Translations under genes and position numbers: made by a program | DNA from: Saccharicrinis sp. | GTDB taxonomy: Bacteria > Bacteroidota > Bacteroidia > Bacteroidales > Marinilabiliaceae | Direction of reading: 5' to 3' | Length of the DNA stretch: 64,000 nucleotides | Assembly: GCA_024635555.1 (NCBI GenBank) | Contig: JAGXIO010000017.1 | Coordinates: 29,797 to 93,796 of the forward strand | Notes under the pieces: generated by a model | The model's database searches: none | Told to the model about the DNA's origin: nothing | Seen by the model: the letters and a program-made list of their open reading frames with translations, nothing else | Shown here: positions 3,104-52,828 of the stretch, piece after piece | How the letters are laid out: each line of letters opens with the position of its first letter | How positions within the stretch are numbered: the first letter of the stretch is position 1

Positions 3104-3243
3104 TTGCCGTTGGCTTTAGCCAACGGAAAAAAGACTTTACTTTTGGCTTTAGCCACATTTAGTCTATTTGGTTTAAAATAAAAAATGTGGCTAAAGCCAG
3201 TAGCTGCTGCACATTCATAACCGTTGGTTAAAACCAACGGCAA
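3104..3243. repeat. Nested inverted-repeat element (intergenic)
   Basis: The outer arms TTGCCGTTGGCTTTAGCCAACGG (3104-3126) and CCGTTGGTTAAAACCAACGGCAA (3221-3243) are each locally palindromic and are inverse copies with two mismatches. Inside them, TGGCTTTAGCCACATTT (3144-3160) pairs perfectly with 3183-3199. The whole could form a branched cruciform or act as a BIME-like element. The minus-strand ORF at 3013-3243 is only a reading of this repeat. Confidence 0.85.
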
Positions 3244-21805: not shown

Positions 21806-21830
21806 TCGTATAAACTTCACAATGTATTAC

Positions 21831-21864
21831 AACAAAAAAGCCGGGTGAACCCGGCTTTTTTGTT
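21831..21864. terminator. Bidirectional intrinsic terminator
   Basis: A perfect 16-bp stem AACAAAAAAGCCGGGT / ACCCGGCTTTTTTGTT with a GA centre separates two convergent genes. The U-run is present for both directions. Confidence 0.92.
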
Positions 21865-21876
21865 GTTGTGCGAATG

Positions 21877-47471: not shown

Positions 47472-48068
47472 ATGCAATCATTTTGGGACGAGCGCTATGC
47501 CTCGCAAAAATACATATATGGCGAAGAGCCAAACCCTCAGCTTAAAAGTTTTATAGACAGAAATACACCGGGCAAAATTTTATTTCCAGGTGAAGGCGAA
47601 GGGCGAAACGCTGTTTATGCAGCCTTGCAAAACTGGGATGTTGTGGCCATGGATCAAAGTAGCATGGCTAAGACCAAAGCAGAGGCTTTGGCCGCCAAAC
47701 ATGGAGTTAAGATTGATTATTCCATAGGCGATATTGTAGCCAGCGTATACCCTCCAGAAAGCTTCGAGGCCATAGCACTGGCATTTTTTCATCTGCCCCC
47801 GCAAGTACGAAATAAGGTACATACTTATTTGGCATCTTTGTTAAAGCCCGGAGGTAAATTATTTTTAGTGGGTTTTTCAAAGCAACAGATCAACTATAAT
47901 AGTGGTGGCCCTGGTAATGTGGATATGCTGTATTCAACAAACCTTTTGCTTGAGGATTTTAATGGTTTTCAGATTGTTACCAATGAGCAGTTTGTGTCGG
48001 AATTAAACGAAGGCGACGGGCATGATGGTCTGGCATCGCTAATAGTGTTTGAAGCAATAAAAAAATAG
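47472..48068 (+). CDS. Class I SAM-dependent methyltransferase
   Basis: This 198-aa protein has a Rossmann-type methyltransferase core: FWDERYASQKYIYGEEPN (TehB-like N-terminus), KILFPGEGEGRNAVYAA (SAM glycine loop, about 35-51), VVAMDQSS (acidic ribose-binding residue) and FLVGFSKQQIN. It resembles tellurite/thiopurine-type small-molecule methyltransferases. The substrate is unknown. It is monocistronic, framed by hairpins on both sides. Confidence 0.85.
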   Translation: MQSFWDERYASQKYIYGEEPNPQLKSFIDRNTPGKILFPGEGEGRNAVYAALQNWDVVAMDQSSMAKTKAEALAAKHGVKIDYSIGDIVASVYPPESFEAIALAFFHLPPQVRNKVHTYLASLLKPGGKLFLVGFSKQQINYNSGGPGNVDMLYSTNLLLEDFNGFQIVTNEQFVSELNEGDGHDGLASLIVFEAIKK

Positions 48069-48081
48069 GATTGGTATAAAC

Positions 48082-48125
48082 CTAACTTGGACAAGCCAAA
48101 AACTTTTTTGGCTTGTCCAAGTTAG
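48082..48125. terminator. Perfect 21-bp inverted repeat after methyltransferase
   Basis: CTAACTTGGACAAGCCAAAAA (48082-48102) and its exact complement (48105-48125) are separated by two bases. The central A/T runs make it a bidirectional terminator candidate, though the stem is longer than most. Confidence 0.8.
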
Positions 48126-48210
48126 TAGGCAAAATTTAAAAATACATAATTTGTAGGTTTCATTATTTTTTATTCTTCAGTATCAAAAAACAATGCATTT
48201 TAAATTTTGC

Positions 48211-48273
48211 TTTAGTACCTTATCTCTAATATTCTCCCAAAAAATGGCAGAATATTAGAGATAAGGTACTAAA
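48211..48273. repeat. Perfect 25-bp inverted repeat with 13-nt loop
   Basis: TTTAGTACCTTATCTCTAATATTCT (48211-48235) is exactly complementary to 48249-48273. It lies only 29 bp upstream of the next start codon. It lacks the G/C-rich stem and U-run of a terminator, so it may be an RNA structural element, a protein-binding palindrome or a small mobile-element relic. Confidence 0.8.
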
Positions 48274-48302
48274 TAATGGTAATTTTGACTTAAATTTTAA
48301 AA

Positions 48303-48668
48303 ATGGATGATAAAGAGATATCTGCCAGCCCGCAGGCTGGGATAAAAGAAGATAGTTGGGAAGAAATGCTTTTAAAAGTAAGCAAGAAATTTAAAGTAAT
48401 GGCCGACTTCGATTTTCTATTGTTTTTGATAGGAATACAGGAACGCGGCACGGGATATATTCAATATTCGAAGCAAGAAAAAATGGACTTAATAAACTTG
48501 GGACGCTGTGTGTTATTTCAGCGCAAAGGTTTTTATGCCACCGATGGAGTTGACGAAGAAGGATGGCCTACTTTTACCATAGTTAATGAAATACAGGATA
48601 TATCGCCCTCGGAACGCGAAGGTATTTTAAAGAAGGCCATGATAAAGTATTTTGCGGAAAAATTATAG
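48303..48668 (+). CDS. Hypothetical protein, Bacteroidota-type
   Basis: This 121-aa soluble acidic protein has no recognised domain. It has a helical N-terminal half (DSWEEMLLKVSKKFKVMADFDFLLFLIGIQE) and a mixed C-terminal half (GYIQYSKQEKMDLINLGRCVLF). Residues 8-14 (ASPQAGI) are encoded by a palindromic repeat (CCAGCCCGCAGGCTGG), so the N-terminus may have been altered by repeat insertion. It is 24 bp upstream of the first cyclophilin gene and may be co-transcribed with it. Confidence 0.65.
   Translation: MDDKEISASPQAGIKEDSWEEMLLKVSKKFKVMADFDFLLFLIGIQERGTGYIQYSKQEKMDLINLGRCVLFQRKGFYATDGVDEEGWPTFTIVNEIQDISPSEREGILKKAMIKYFAEKL
48325..48340. repeat. Palindrome inside the hypothetical gene
   Basis: CCAGCCCGCAGGCTGG (16 bp) lies within codons 8-13. 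With flanking TATCTG..GGATA it resembles the dispersed palindromes at 4611 and 31514. Confidence 0.7.
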
Positions 48669-48692: not shown

Positions 48693-49559
48693 ATGAAAAA
48701 TACCATTTTGTATTTATTATCAATGCTCTTTATGAGCATTATAAGTTGCTCGTCCAAGCCGAGTGAGCCCATTGTGCGTATAAAAACCACACATGGAACC
48801 CTCAAGATAAAGTTGTACAACGAAACCCCGGCACATCGCGATAACTTTTTAAAGCTGGCGAAAGAGGGGTATTTCGATGGTACCTTGTTTCATCGGGTTA
48901 TCAAAGATTTTATGATTCAGGGTGGTGACCCCAATTCTAAAGATGCGCAACCCGGAGTGTCACTGGGCGATGGGGGACCGGACTATACCTTGCCTGCCGA
49001 GTTTAATTACCCTACACTTTTCCATAAAAAAGGAGCGCTTGCCGCAGCCCGCCAAGGCGATCAGCAAAATCCCGAAAAACGTTCCTCGGGCTCGCAGTTT
49101 TATATTGTGCACGGCGAGGTGTACGACGAAGCTAAGCTCGCCAAGGAAGAAAACAAAATACGTGAAGGAAAAAGACGGGATATTTTTAACCACTTGCTTA
49201 TGCAGTACAACGATTCGTTAAATATGCTTCAGCAATTGGGCAAGGAGGATGAAATGATGGCTTTGCAGAATTTTGTAATGAGCGAGGTAATGAGAATATA
49301 CGGCGAGGAACCTGAGTTTAGTATCCCGGAAAAAATAAAGGAGGTTTATAAAACAATTGGCGGAACTCCTCATTTGGATAGATCGTACACGGTTTTTGGT
49401 GAGGTGATTGAAGATAAAACCCTGTTTGAAAAAATTGGCTCGTGGTTTGGTAAGCACTATGGCTTGGAGGTTATAGACCTAATAGCCCAGGAAAAAACCG
49501 ATGGCCGTAACCGACCGCTGAACGATGTGGTAATGGAAGTAAAAGTGGTTAAAAAATAA
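48693..49559 (+). CDS. Cyclophilin-type peptidyl-prolyl isomerase, lipoprotein
   Basis: This 288-aa protein has a signal ending MSIISCSSKPSEP, an SPII site. The cyclophilin core starts VRIKTTHGTLKIKLYNETP and keeps the active-site Arg, Phe and Gln (LFHRVIKDFMIQGGD). A helical insertion of about 80 residues (YDEAKLAKEENKIREGKR..NFVMSEVMRIYG) sits between the core and the final YTVFGEVIED strand. It would catalyse X-Pro isomerisation of periplasmic or outer-membrane proteins. It is the first of three cyclophilins in 4.1 kb. Confidence 0.93.
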   Translation: MKNTILYLLSMLFMSIISCSSKPSEPIVRIKTTHGTLKIKLYNETPAHRDNFLKLAKEGYFDGTLFHRVIKDFMIQGGDPNSKDAQPGVSLGDGGPDYTLPAEFNYPTLFHKKGALAAARQGDQQNPEKRSSGSQFYIVHGEVYDEAKLAKEENKIREGKRRDIFNHLLMQYNDSLNMLQQLGKEDEMMALQNFVMSEVMRIYGEEPEFSIPEKIKEVYKTIGGTPHLDRSYTVFGEVIEDKTLFEKIGSWFGKHYGLEVIDLIAQEKTDGRNRPLNDVVMEVKVVKK

Positions 49560-49619
49560 TATTCATCAAATTGTTGTAAGTTGTATAATATGTGTTTTTG
49601 TAAATGAAAATTTAGTTAT

Positions 49620-50468
49620 ATGACAAAAGAAACGTCAATAAAGTTATTTCAGGACCATAACGTGCGTGTTGTATGGGATAGTAATCAAGAAAAATGGCTT
49701 TTTTCTATAGTTGATATAATTGCGATTTTAACAGGCAGTGAAAGACCAAGAAAATACTGGTCGGATTTAAAGAAGAAGTTAAAGTTGGAAGGAAGTGAAG
49801 TGTCCGAAAAAATCGGACAGTTGAAAATGAAGTCTCCTGATGGTAAAATGAGAGTGACGGATGTTGCTGACACGGAGCAGTTGTTACGATTAATACAGTC
49901 CATTCCGTCGCCCAAAGTAGAGCCATTTAAATTATGGTTAGCTAAAGTAGGTTATGAACGTATTGAAGAAACTGAGGATCCTGAAATAGCTTTTGATAGG
50001 GCAATGGAAACGTACCTAAAAAAAGGATATTCTACAAATTGGATAAATCAAAGACTAAAGAGTATTGAAGTCCGTAAGGAATTAACTGATGAATGGGAAC
50101 AAAGAGGAGTTAAAAAAGGTCTGGACTATGCCATCCTAACCGACGAGATAACACAAGCTTGGGCTGGACTAACAACTAAGGAATACAAAGACTTTAAAGA
50201 TCTTAAGAAAGAAAATCTCAGAGATAATATGACCAATTTAGAGTTGGTTTTAAATATGTTGGCAGAAGCTACAACTACTGAAATTTCAAAAGAAAAGAAA
50301 CCTGAAACATTTTTGGAGAATAAGAAAATAGCAAGACAAGGAGGTACAATAGCTGGAAATACAAGGAAGGAGATTGAAGAGAAGACGGGAAAAAGCGTAC
50401 TATCACCACTTAATGCAAAAGAACTTGGAGGGAAGATCGATAATAAAAATATGGGGATAGAAGAATGA
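49620..50468 (+). CDS. BRO-N domain protein (DinD/antirepressor-like)
   Basis: This 282-aa protein has an N-terminal BRO-N domain (about 5-115): VRVVWDSNQEKWLFSIVDI, RPRKYWSDLKKKL and LLRLIQSIPSPKVEPFKLWLAKVG, the typical phage antirepressor/DinD fold. Residues 115-275 form a helical C-terminal part seen in DinD-like proteins (YLKKGYSTNWINQRLKSIEVRKEL, and a final IARQGGTIAGNTRKEIEEKTG). Such proteins are often SOS- or phage-linked DNA binders. It sits alone between two cyclophilin genes with no other phage gene, so it looks like an independent insertion. Confidence 0.88.
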   Translation: MTKETSIKLFQDHNVRVVWDSNQEKWLFSIVDIIAILTGSERPRKYWSDLKKKLKLEGSEVSEKIGQLKMKSPDGKMRVTDVADTEQLLRLIQSIPSPKVEPFKLWLAKVGYERIEETEDPEIAFDRAMETYLKKGYSTNWINQRLKSIEVRKELTDEWEQRGVKKGLDYAILTDEITQAWAGLTTKEYKDFKDLKKENLRDNMTNLELVLNMLAEATTTEISKEKKPETFLENKKIARQGGTIAGNTRKEIEEKTGKSVLSPLNAKELGGKIDNKNMGIEE

Positions 50469-50532
50469 AAAGCCAAAATATGAATTATGAATAATATTAT
50501 ATGCAGGATTAAGTCCATTTAAAATTTTGCGA

Positions 50533-51327
50533 ATGAAAAAGTTAGTTGTTTTAGCGATATTTGGTCTTTGGGTTTTAGTTGGTCATGCACAAAGTAAAAG
50601 CGTAATCATATCAACCACTTTGGGCGATATAAAAATTATGCTTTACGATGATACACCCAAGCATAGAGATGGCTTTTTAAAACTAGCTACGGAATGTCAC
50701 TACGATGGCACACTATTTTACAGGGTAGTAAAAAATTTTGTGATTCAAGGCGGATCGTCCGACTCAAAAAATGCTTCGCCAGGAAAGCATATTGGCTATG
50801 GCAGTTCAGAATTAACCATCGATTCAGAATTCCGCGAGAACAGGTTTCATAAAAAAGGTGCCATCTGCGCACCTCGACAACCCGAAGATATCAATCATTT
50901 TTTAATGTCGGACATAAGCCAGTTTTATATTGTTTTAGGCAGGATTTACACTGAATCAGAGCTGGACTTGTTGGAAAAAGCAACAAACACCCCCATCATG
51001 ATTGATCTGAAAAAGAAATTTTATCTGCCACAAAAAGCCAGGCTGGATAAACTAAAAACGGAAGATCCTCATGGCTTCAACCAATTACTGCGCGAAATAA
51101 AGGATAAAATAGCTTTTGAATATACTCTTTCGGACCGATTGGAGTTTACTCCGGAACAAAGGAAAGTTTATACAACAATAGGCGGTTTACCTGAGTTGGA
51201 TGCCGACTATACGGTATTTGGAGAGGTGGTCAGCGGCTTTAGCGTTGTGGAGAAAATTGCCGCTCTCGAAACCGACAAAAACAACCGCCCCTATACCGAT
51301 GTGAAGCTGGTGGTGAGGGTGTTGTAG
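50533..51327 (+). CDS. Cyclophilin-type peptidyl-prolyl isomerase, secreted
   Basis: The ATG at 50533 (MKKLVVLAIFGLWVLVGHAQ, a signal peptide) is preferred over TTG 50527; the product is 264 aa. The cyclophilin core is SVIISTTLGDIKIMLYDDTP with active-site residues in LFYRVVKNFVIQGGS. The middle has a helical insertion like that of the preceding cyclophilin, ending YTTIGGLPELDADYTVFGEV. The usual SGSQF element is changed to MSDISQFYIV, so activity may be reduced. It is a paralogue of its two neighbours. Confidence 0.9.
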   Translation: MKKLVVLAIFGLWVLVGHAQSKSVIISTTLGDIKIMLYDDTPKHRDGFLKLATECHYDGTLFYRVVKNFVIQGGSSDSKNASPGKHIGYGSSELTIDSEFRENRFHKKGAICAPRQPEDINHFLMSDISQFYIVLGRIYTESELDLLEKATNTPIMIDLKKKFYLPQKARLDKLKTEDPHGFNQLLREIKDKIAFEYTLSDRLEFTPEQRKVYTTIGGLPELDADYTVFGEVVSGFSVVEKIAALETDKNNRPYTDVKLVVRVL

Positions 51328-51395
51328 ATTGGATGTTTGTGCGATTTTAGATAAAATAAAATAATAAGGTTGTCTATATCATGGAAATACAATAG

Positions 51396-51472
51396 CTACT
51401 AAGGTGAAAAAAATAAAATAAGGTCTTAATAGTAATAGTGAAAACCTTATTTTTAGCAGCAAACCTTAGTAG
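51396..51472. repeat. Nested inverted repeats upstream of fused cyclophilin
   Basis: Outer arms CTACTAAGGT (51396-51405) and ACCTTAGTAG (51463-51472) enclose AAAATAAGGT (51415-51424) and ACCTTATTTT (51444-51453). The 7-mer AAGGT(C/G) and its complement recur. This 202-bp gap could fold into a compact stem, or contain operator sites for the downstream gene. Confidence 0.7.
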
Positions 51473-51529
51473 TTTTTAATAAACGAAGTTTAGTGACCTT
51501 ATTACCTTATTCGAATTAATTACATAAAC

Positions 51530-52828
51530 ATGAGCAAATTAGGAATTGTACTTTTACTAGTGGTTGCCCTAGCCGCATGTAAAACCGGGCAGCAAAAAAG
51601 CGATGGTTCAAAACAAGAGCATATCTTACCTAAGAGCTCGTATCAGCGTAATATTAAAGGCATTGTAAGTATCGAAACCCTCGATCATTATAACCGCTCT
51701 TTAAATAAAGGTTACGGCTTTTATATCTCCCCAAATCTGGTGGTTACCAATCTGGATTTAATAAAAGGCAGTTTCAAGGCCAAAGTAGCCATCATTGAGG
51801 CCGACGATTACTATGACGTAGCTGGTTATACAGCCTATAATATTGAGCAAAACTTGGTGATATTAAAAACATGGAAGAGGAATTTAAATTATCTCGATAT
51901 CGATAAAGTTGCGCAGAGCATCCCGGATTCTGTGGCAGGATTATATCGCAAACAAAAAACAATGTATGCCCCAAAGGCCGCAGTTGAAAAGCTGGAGCTG
52001 GATTCCACAGTGCAGTATCTTTTGAGTCGCTACATATTTGTCGGCTTGCCTGTTTTTAACGATTTGCATCATTTGGTTGGCATGGCGCAAACCATAGATA
52101 CCGATAGCGGCGATGTTTCGGTGCTTATCCCGGCATCGGACATTAAAGATCTCAGTCAAAATCAACTTGAGCAGCAGGCTGCAATTTACGATCTGCGCAC
52201 CAAAACCAACAAGGTGTATCCATCCTACAAAAATATTGAGGCATTCAGAATAACTACCACTATGGGCAGCATCACCATAAAACTCTACAACCAAACGCCC
52301 GTGTTTCGAGATAATTTTATAAAACTAGTGAGCGATCAGTTTTACGACAGCCTGCTGGTTCACAGAGTAATACGCAATTTTTTGATTCAAGCAGGTGCCG
52401 CCGATAGTAAATATGCGGGTAAAGATGATTTGGTAGGCTGGCAGGGCCCGGGATACGATTTAAAAACCAATATTGTTCCCGGATTATTCCATAAACGTGG
52501 TGCTGTGGCAGCCTCAAAAATGCCGGCAGAGCGTAACCCCAAAAACCGTTCCGACGGTTCGCAATTTTTTGTCGTTTCGGGAAGACCCTTCACGATAGAC
52601 GAACTGAAGGATTTGGAAAAAGAAAAAGGAATAAAATTTACTCAAGCGCAAATAAACACTTACACCACGGTTGGCGGAGCTCCACATCTTGACGACGATT
52701 ATACCGTTTTTGGCGAAGTTATCCAAGGGATGGATGTGGTTGATAAAATTGCTACCGTTAAAACTTATGGCGTGGATAGGCCAGTTGACGATATCAGGAT
52801 ACTAAAAATTGAGATCTTGAAAAAATAA
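51530..52828 (+). CDS. Trypsin-like pseudoprotease fused to cyclophilin, lipoprotein
   Basis: This 432-aa lipoprotein (MSKLGIVLLLVVALAAC, Cys17) has two parts. Residues about 43-205 follow the plan of a trypsin-like protease (GYGFYISPNLVVTNLDLI, then QNLVILK, then FVGLPVFNDLHHLVGM). The positions of the catalytic residues hold Asp76 instead of His, Asn108 instead of Asp and Val171 instead of Ser, so no peptidase activity is expected. Residues about 228-432 are a cyclophilin core with LVHRVIRNFLIQAGAAD and SDGSQFFVVSG. The protease-like part may bind substrates for the isomerase. The alignment was made by eye. Confidence 0.8.
   Translation: MSKLGIVLLLVVALAACKTGQQKSDGSKQEHILPKSSYQRNIKGIVSIETLDHYNRSLNKGYGFYISPNLVVTNLDLIKGSFKAKVAIIEADDYYDVAGYTAYNIEQNLVILKTWKRNLNYLDIDKVAQSIPDSVAGLYRKQKTMYAPKAAVEKLELDSTVQYLLSRYIFVGLPVFNDLHHLVGMAQTIDTDSGDVSVLIPASDIKDLSQNQLEQQAAIYDLRTKTNKVYPSYKNIEAFRITTTMGSITIKLYNQTPVFRDNFIKLVSDQFYDSLLVHRVIRNFLIQAGAADSKYAGKDDLVGWQGPGYDLKTNIVPGLFHKRGAVAASKMPAERNPKNRSDGSQFFVVSGRPFTIDELKDLEKEKGIKFTQAQINTYTTVGGAPHLDDDYTVFGEVIQGMDVVDKIATVKTYGVDRPVDDIRILKIEILKK

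Follow-up and report, generated by a model that had tools for sequence, protein, structure and literature searches.

Two perfect palindromes in a Saccharicrinis genome belong to what is very probably an inserted mobile element with hairpin-forming ends

The stretch of DNA analysed here (64,000 nucleotides of a Saccharicrinis contig, below called the window) contains at positions 48081–48272 a unit that is almost certainly an inserted member of a mobile family. We have good confidence in the following overall explanation. A short non-autonomous element would have entered between a methyltransferase gene and a gene of the cyclophilin cluster. The ends of its family are asymmetric, conserved and hairpin-forming, and full-length relatives carry an ORF of approximately 500 amino acids, which is taken to encode the transposase. 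This enzyme probably reads the ends as folded single strands and moves copies in trans, like the IS200/IS605 transposases and the RAYTs. In the Saccharicrinis subfamily, template switching would have made each end a perfect palindrome, would keep the arms identical and could flip the spacer. The window copy parts the -33 box of the downstream gene from its -7 box, and so probably alters the expression of this gene. The odd pair of hairpins would then be only a small visible part of a mobile-element family, one that spreads within Marinilabiliaceae and reaches Pseudomonadota. The features of the locus are as follows.

47472–48068, plus strand: upstream gene for a TPMT/TehB-like methyltransferase, the left flank of the insertion; the flank is the same in the congeners G005 and G006.
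48071–48073, plus strand: former -33 box (TTG) of the downstream gene, parted from the -7 box by the insertion; the box pair is present in G005, G006, G003, G004 and G007.
48081–48272, plus strand: the whole putative non-autonomous mobile element, 192 bp (CCTAACTTGG...GGTACTAA), delimited by the empty orthologous site and by copies elsewhere; the final AA is common to the element and the empty site.
48081–48102, plus strand: family 5' end sequence (CCTAACTTGGACAAGCCAAAAA), which holds the mini-hairpin TTGG-ACAAG-CCAA; the same end stands before hundreds of small elements and, elsewhere, before the ORF.
48082–48125, no strand: hairpin 1, the 5' end plus its own inverted copy, a 21-bp perfect palindrome also present in other copies.
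48128–48141, plus strand: left arm of the middle stem (GGCAAAATTTAAAA), from the fold and covarying pairs (helix 2).
48198–48211, plus strand: right arm of the middle stem (TTTTAAATTTTGCT), from the fold and covarying pairs (helix 2).
48211–48273, no strand: hairpin 3, the 3' end preceded by its own inverted copy, a 25-bp perfect palindrome; a non-palindromic form of the same 3' end is known in relatives.
48228–48272, plus strand: family 3' end sequence (AATATTCTCCCAAAAAATGGCAGAATATTAGAGATAAGGTACTAA, start approximate); compare AATATTCTGCCAAAAAATACACGAATATTAGTGATAAGATACTAA in locus L174 and the end of the element at locus L196.
48280–48287, plus strand: -7 box TAATTTTG (Bacteroidota consensus TAnnTTTG), 7 nt past the element, read from the sequence.
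48303–48668, plus strand: downstream gene, 121 aa, no Pfam family, kept in 8 of 8 congeners searched.

The two palindromes are exactly as an earlier note on this DNA had described them. Hairpin 1 has a 21-bp stem around a 2-nt centre and hairpin 3 a 25-bp stem with a 13-nt loop, both with zero mismatches; with the loop closed further, the stem of hairpin 3 extends over 29 positions, 97% of them paired. They are the top two perfect inverted repeats by length in the window, the next being of 18 and 17 bp, and the longest arm in 40 dinucleotide-preserving shuffles of the window was 9–13 bp, as compared to 25 bp in the real sequence. Both palindromes are real and far beyond chance. The interval 48060–48310 folds with −87.6 kcal/mol versus −39.4 ± 4.4 in shuffles (z = −10.9). 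The fold includes a third stem between the palindromes, in which 48128–48141 pairs with 48198–48211 and which the earlier note had missed. Together with this middle stem, the palindromes are not independent and form one repeated unit (48081–48272). Elsewhere in the window, long perfect inverted repeats were observed at 21829–21866 (18 bp, with a T-run inside the stem) and at 3144–3199 (17 bp, loop of 22 nt).

That the window copy was inserted follows from the orthologous site, which lacks the element in two congeners, one of them the closest. In the closest congener, G005 (Saccharicrinis sp. LH_M89), the site is empty (L098: GGATTGGTAAAAAGCC directly followed by AAATAATGG); the interval reads ...AAATAGGATTGGTAAAAAGCC and then AAATAATGGTAATTTTGAC, where the window has 48081–48272 instead, and the downstream protein is 93% identical to that of the window. 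The site in G006 (L099) is also empty. Near-precise empty counterparts were found for four more copies, namely C73/G000_C46, C279/G000_C231, C110/G000_C211 and the kbl copy C22 with the paralogous C148. The two ends are unrelated to each other (CCTAACTTGG versus TTAGTACCTT, read inwards), and there are no terminal inverted repeats. Comparison of filled and empty sites revealed no clear or constant target duplication. The target looks roughly like C^(T)TAA in five sites, with ambiguous junctions at which a few bases are lost or ambiguous, and the exact termini are therefore uncertain by a few bases. At locus L112 of the window genome (G000:C97), the intergenic position that in G005 is occupied by copy C219 holds a different insertion, approximately 230 bp long and bearing an inverted repeat of its own (TTGAACCCTTTCA...TGAAAGGGTTCAA). 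Several copies (loci L041, L042, L046, L177 and L196) have a palindrome like GTTTTTTCAGGACAAGCCTGAAAAAA immediately behind the 3' end; this palindrome could be either a target favoured by the element or another repeat unit.

Both ends of the window copy are shared with a larger family. The 5' end CCYAACYTGGACAAGCCA and the 3' end AATATTCTGCCA...GATAAGGTACTAA recur with unrelated middles, with up to 152 occurrences per genome in the family; in the relatives G020 and G035, for instance, the termini are the same and the interiors different. A 22-mer pattern of the 5' end (CCTAACYTGGACARGCCAGAAC, at most 2 mismatches) was found in 18 of 71 family genomes, with a maximum of 152 in G027, and the reversed pattern used as a control gave no matches. 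The 3' motif TGCCAAAAAAYACACGAAT was located within 600 nt downstream of 16 of 26 non-redundant 5' ends; in each of two controls, upstream and on the opposite strand, the count was 0 of 26. Thus, what defines an element is its pair of ends, 5' and 3', while the middle varies. The signature of the family is CCYAACNNGG..CCNNAACCAAACARG at the 5' end and ..TACTAA at the 3' end, with the ORF of ~500 aa in full copies. A mini-hairpin (NNGG-loop-CCNN), the 5-nt loop of which ends in AG, is located 6 nt from the 5' terminus. Its stem covaries between elements (GTGG/CCAC, CCGG/CCGG, CTGG/CCAG, GCGG/CCGC, TTGG/CCAA), as computed on the first eight elements, with the TTGG/CCAA of the window read directly from the sequence. 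The family 3' end consists of a hairpin, AATATTC..GAATATT, followed by a tail of ~16 nt that ends in TACTAA.

Two other structured systems were considered for these ends. The attC sites of integrons, with the consensus RYYYAAC on the left and GTTRRRY on the right, were rejected: the left arm here agrees with RYYYAAC, but right-arm sequences such as GTTAGTA and GTTGCTG depart from GTTRRRY, and the stems have no extrahelical bases. A retron or group II intron was rejected because none of the neighbouring genes that were examined encodes a reverse transcriptase and L173, L174 and L176 gave no Rfam match. By eye, the sequence that follows the 5' end at L176 (G027:C199 edge; GTGCAAGTCCGTGAGATGG...) and runs to the contig end resembles a group II intron. 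Three IMG/VR contigs binned as viral (L229, L230, L235) carry a G+C-rich 5' end, such as CCTAACCCGGCGTAGCCGGAACCAAACAGG, with no recognisable family ORF downstream.

The full-length relatives suggest a source for the mobility. In G069, the same two ends enclose a frame of 502 codons in an element of ~1.6 kb in all, and in G319 the ORF is again located between these ends, with AATATTCTGCCAAAAAATGATAGAATATTAAATTTTAGGTACTAA after the ORF. The single contig of G450 holds three element copies, 99–99.9% identical, at three sites. The same 5' end precedes the ORF in G391, in G450 and on the Paraburkholderia plasmid pOLGA1, where the protein WP_063501089.1, 50% identical to the ORF of G069, is encoded behind CCTAAGCCGGACGAGCCGGAACCAAACAGG. 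This upstream end is the covarying 5' mini-hairpin; the 3' end was not recognised in the pOLGA1 element. Proteins of the WP_063501089.1 type are annotated as "ArsR family transcriptional regulator" or hypothetical, an annotation that rests on a C-terminal winged helix only, and searches against Pfam, NCBIfam, PHROG and PDB gave no convincing relative beyond this winged helix. There was no match to PF01797 (Y1_Tnp) in the ORFs of G069 and pOLGA1 or in three distant homologs, and no recognised catalytic domain in the ORF. The invariant residues sit in blocks (HYYFYFID, QAEY, KMYDKFxxxLRIETTxN); as a guess by eye, the predicted order of strands and helices around the first block recalls an RNase H-like core. 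Several intact copies of the ORF were found in one genome only, and the small elements have only the ends in common with the ORF elements. Homologs of the ORF were sought in phages and IMG/VR, and none were found there. We infer that the ~500-aa ORF family is probably the transposase of the superfamily, in which case the presumed transposase is currently annotated as a transcriptional regulator or hypothetical protein. The ORF was found neither in the window genome nor in G027, G020 and G035, which have the most small copies. A distant ORF subfamily (~550 aa, 26–29% identity) is present at L201, L202, L204 and L205 (G016, G122, G011, G076) and has conserved flanks of its own: ATACCGACCT(A/G)A precedes the ORF at each of the four loci, and AAAAACGTGAATTTTATTTACGTTTT follows it at three.

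The most serious alternative is that the element is a REPIN or an IS200/IS605 derivative moved by a resident Y1 (HUH) transposase, which we consider unlikely. Elements of the IS200/IS605 group have no terminal inverted repeats, have small subterminal hairpins that differ between the ends and insert without clear target duplication (PMC6006769). Their insertion point is 3' of a fixed tetra- or pentanucleotide. The window element resembles them in lacking terminal repeats and in its asymmetric hairpin ends, and Y1_Tnp genes are present in its genome; as noted above, its filled and empty sites show no clear duplication, and the target is only roughly C^(T)TAA. However, the hairpins of the element are absent within 1.5 kb of 9 of 9 Y1 loci, no Y1 gene of the window genome carries the ends, and the ORF that the ends do flank has no match to Y1_Tnp (PF01797). 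Likewise, the short palindromic, non-autonomous and intergenic REPINs and REP sequences with their RAYTs show compensatory changes and reach many copies in some genomes (PMC3116915; PMC3733652). A REPIN is nevertheless an inverted pair of one REP, whereas the left palindrome here is a 5' end and the right one an unrelated 3' end; there is no GT[AG]G foot at the hairpin corresponding to a REP, and relatives carry an ORF of their own. Neither an inverted REP pair with its foot nor a RAYT gene flanked by copies of the element was found. The family is filed under neither group because its ORF is no recognised Y1 transposase and its palindromes are mutually unrelated. At L059 (G000:C158), hairpins of almost the same sequence (AGGGCTGAAAGCC...GGCTTTCAGCCCT) stand on either side of a Y1 transposase gene and form with it a REPtron-like unit.

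A broader proposal, which we put forward tentatively and at somewhat less than even chances, is that the ends and the ~500-aa protein make up a new, phylum-crossing class of bacterial transposable element, with ends that act as folded single strands and a transposase whose fold is unrecognised and which may combine an RNase H-like nuclease with the C-terminal winged helix. Under this proposal, the short passenger elements, hundreds in number, and the subfamily with palindromic ends would all derive from this class. We are similarly doubtful that such a class has gone undescribed: no relevant paper was found on the end sequences or on a family of such description, and the family may already stand in ISfinder as unclassified. 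With its ends, ORF and empty sites, it is a defined test system for a possibly new transposition chemistry.

The window genome (Saccharicrinis-like, Bacteroidales) holds three further partial copies (C22, C226 and a fragment on C254), and additional copies are present in G005 and G006. A covariance model (R1), built from nine copies, matched 4 of 149 relatives (G000, G005, G006, G086) and gave no match in the other six congeners (G001–G004, G007, G008). Across the nine copies, 93.5% of pair cells are paired, as compared to 33–45% when the alignment is slid, and 17 of 63 base pairs show double-sided changes. Conservation without pairing in relatives, which the earlier note would have counted as a refutation, was not seen; pairing is kept through these 17 pairs. 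The kbl region (G000 C22/C148) and the mutA region (C226/C176) are each present twice in the assembly at 90–98% identity, and in each case just one of the two copies carries the element; the doubled regions are either paralogs or stem from a second strain.

Ordinary members of the family have a single 5' end, and their 3' end is an imperfect hairpin that carries a single-stranded tail. Each end of the Saccharicrinis subfamily is accompanied by an inverted copy of itself, which is placed after the 5' end and before the 3' end. The hairpin 1 spacer is 36–38 nt long in four copies and inverted in one of them (G005 C73), which scores 18 to 28 when aligned inverted and −2 to −5 when aligned directly. 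Among the non-Watson-Crick pairs, 6 of 37 are G-T, a chance proportion, and with no enrichment of G-T, selection on RNA pairing is not indicated. Template switching between inverted repeats is reported to leave homogenised arms and inverted spacers as its signatures (PMC8604942; see also PMC8794818), and hairpin 1 likewise displays both across copies, as in template-switch (quasipalindrome) mutation. This mutation is a process and not an element; here, it would act on transposon ends, and the product would then be amplified. We thus lean towards replication template switching as the origin of the palindromes, and the perfect pairing would be a mutational product that spread with the element. 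The palindromised subfamily would illustrate that errors of replication can convert the ends of a transposon into perfect hairpins, which then spread. The earlier note had explained the perfect pairing by recent origin or strong selection: the site empty in the closest and a second congener bears out a recent insertion, whereas the G-T proportion and the inverted spacer make selection on pairing unnecessary.

A structured RNA that selection on pairing maintains, either non-coding or cis-regulatory (leader, sRNA or riboregulator), would account for the very stable three-stem fold, the compensatory changes and the location of several copies upstream of gene starts in the same orientation as the gene. 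We regard it as improbable: besides the G-T proportion, close relatives have an intact downstream gene but no element at the site, the copies G005 C279 and C219 are oriented opposite to the adjacent gene and copy G006 C3 extends into the 3'-terminal part of a reading frame. Nor did any Rfam family match at the gathering score; only sub-threshold chance matches were obtained, mostly to microRNA hairpins.

A classical MITE of a DDE transposon is strongly disfavoured. The element is small, dispersed, non-coding, intergenic and inserted, and prokaryotic MITEs (RUP, NEMIS/Correia, ERIC; PMC3733652) similarly measure 70–300 bp, are non-coding with strong hairpin potential and lie beside genes. MITEs have terminal inverted repeats of 15–30 bp and arise with target duplication, whereas the ends here are unrelated and the comparison of empty and filled sites showed no clear duplication.

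Intergenic palindromes are often terminators or operators, but the reading of two independent intrinsic terminators or protein-binding palindromes, adjacent by chance, is contradicted by co-occurring copies in which both stems travel as one unit to other loci; neither was called by a terminator scan, and no T-run follows either stem, as it would follow the G+C-rich stem of an intrinsic terminator. The earlier note had likewise seen no terminator features in the second palindrome.

At this locus, the inserted element may have changed a promoter. As previously noted, 29 bp separate the end of the second palindrome from the start codon (ATG at 48303). Upstream of the 121-aa gene, G005, G006, G004 and G007 have TTG or TTTG, 19 nt and TAnTTTTG, and G003 has the same arrangement with 18 nt; no such pair was found in G001, G002 and G008. 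The pair TTG-N19-TAnnTTTG conforms to the -33/-7 promoter of Bacteroidota. In the window, the TTG (48071–48073) and TAATTTTG (48280–48287) are now separated by the element and the box pair is gone. Judged by sequence, transcription of the 121-aa gene is probably reduced or altered, and the cyclophilin gene behind it is perhaps affected too; the element explains this probable promoter disruption in the window strain. The palindromes have no particular tie to the cyclophilins, before whose cluster the earlier note had placed them. Three genes for cyclophilin-type peptidyl-prolyl isomerases are clustered at 48693–52828 of the window, the third with an extra N-terminal region, and a Bro-N domain gene (49620–50468) that looks like a separate acquisition interrupts them.
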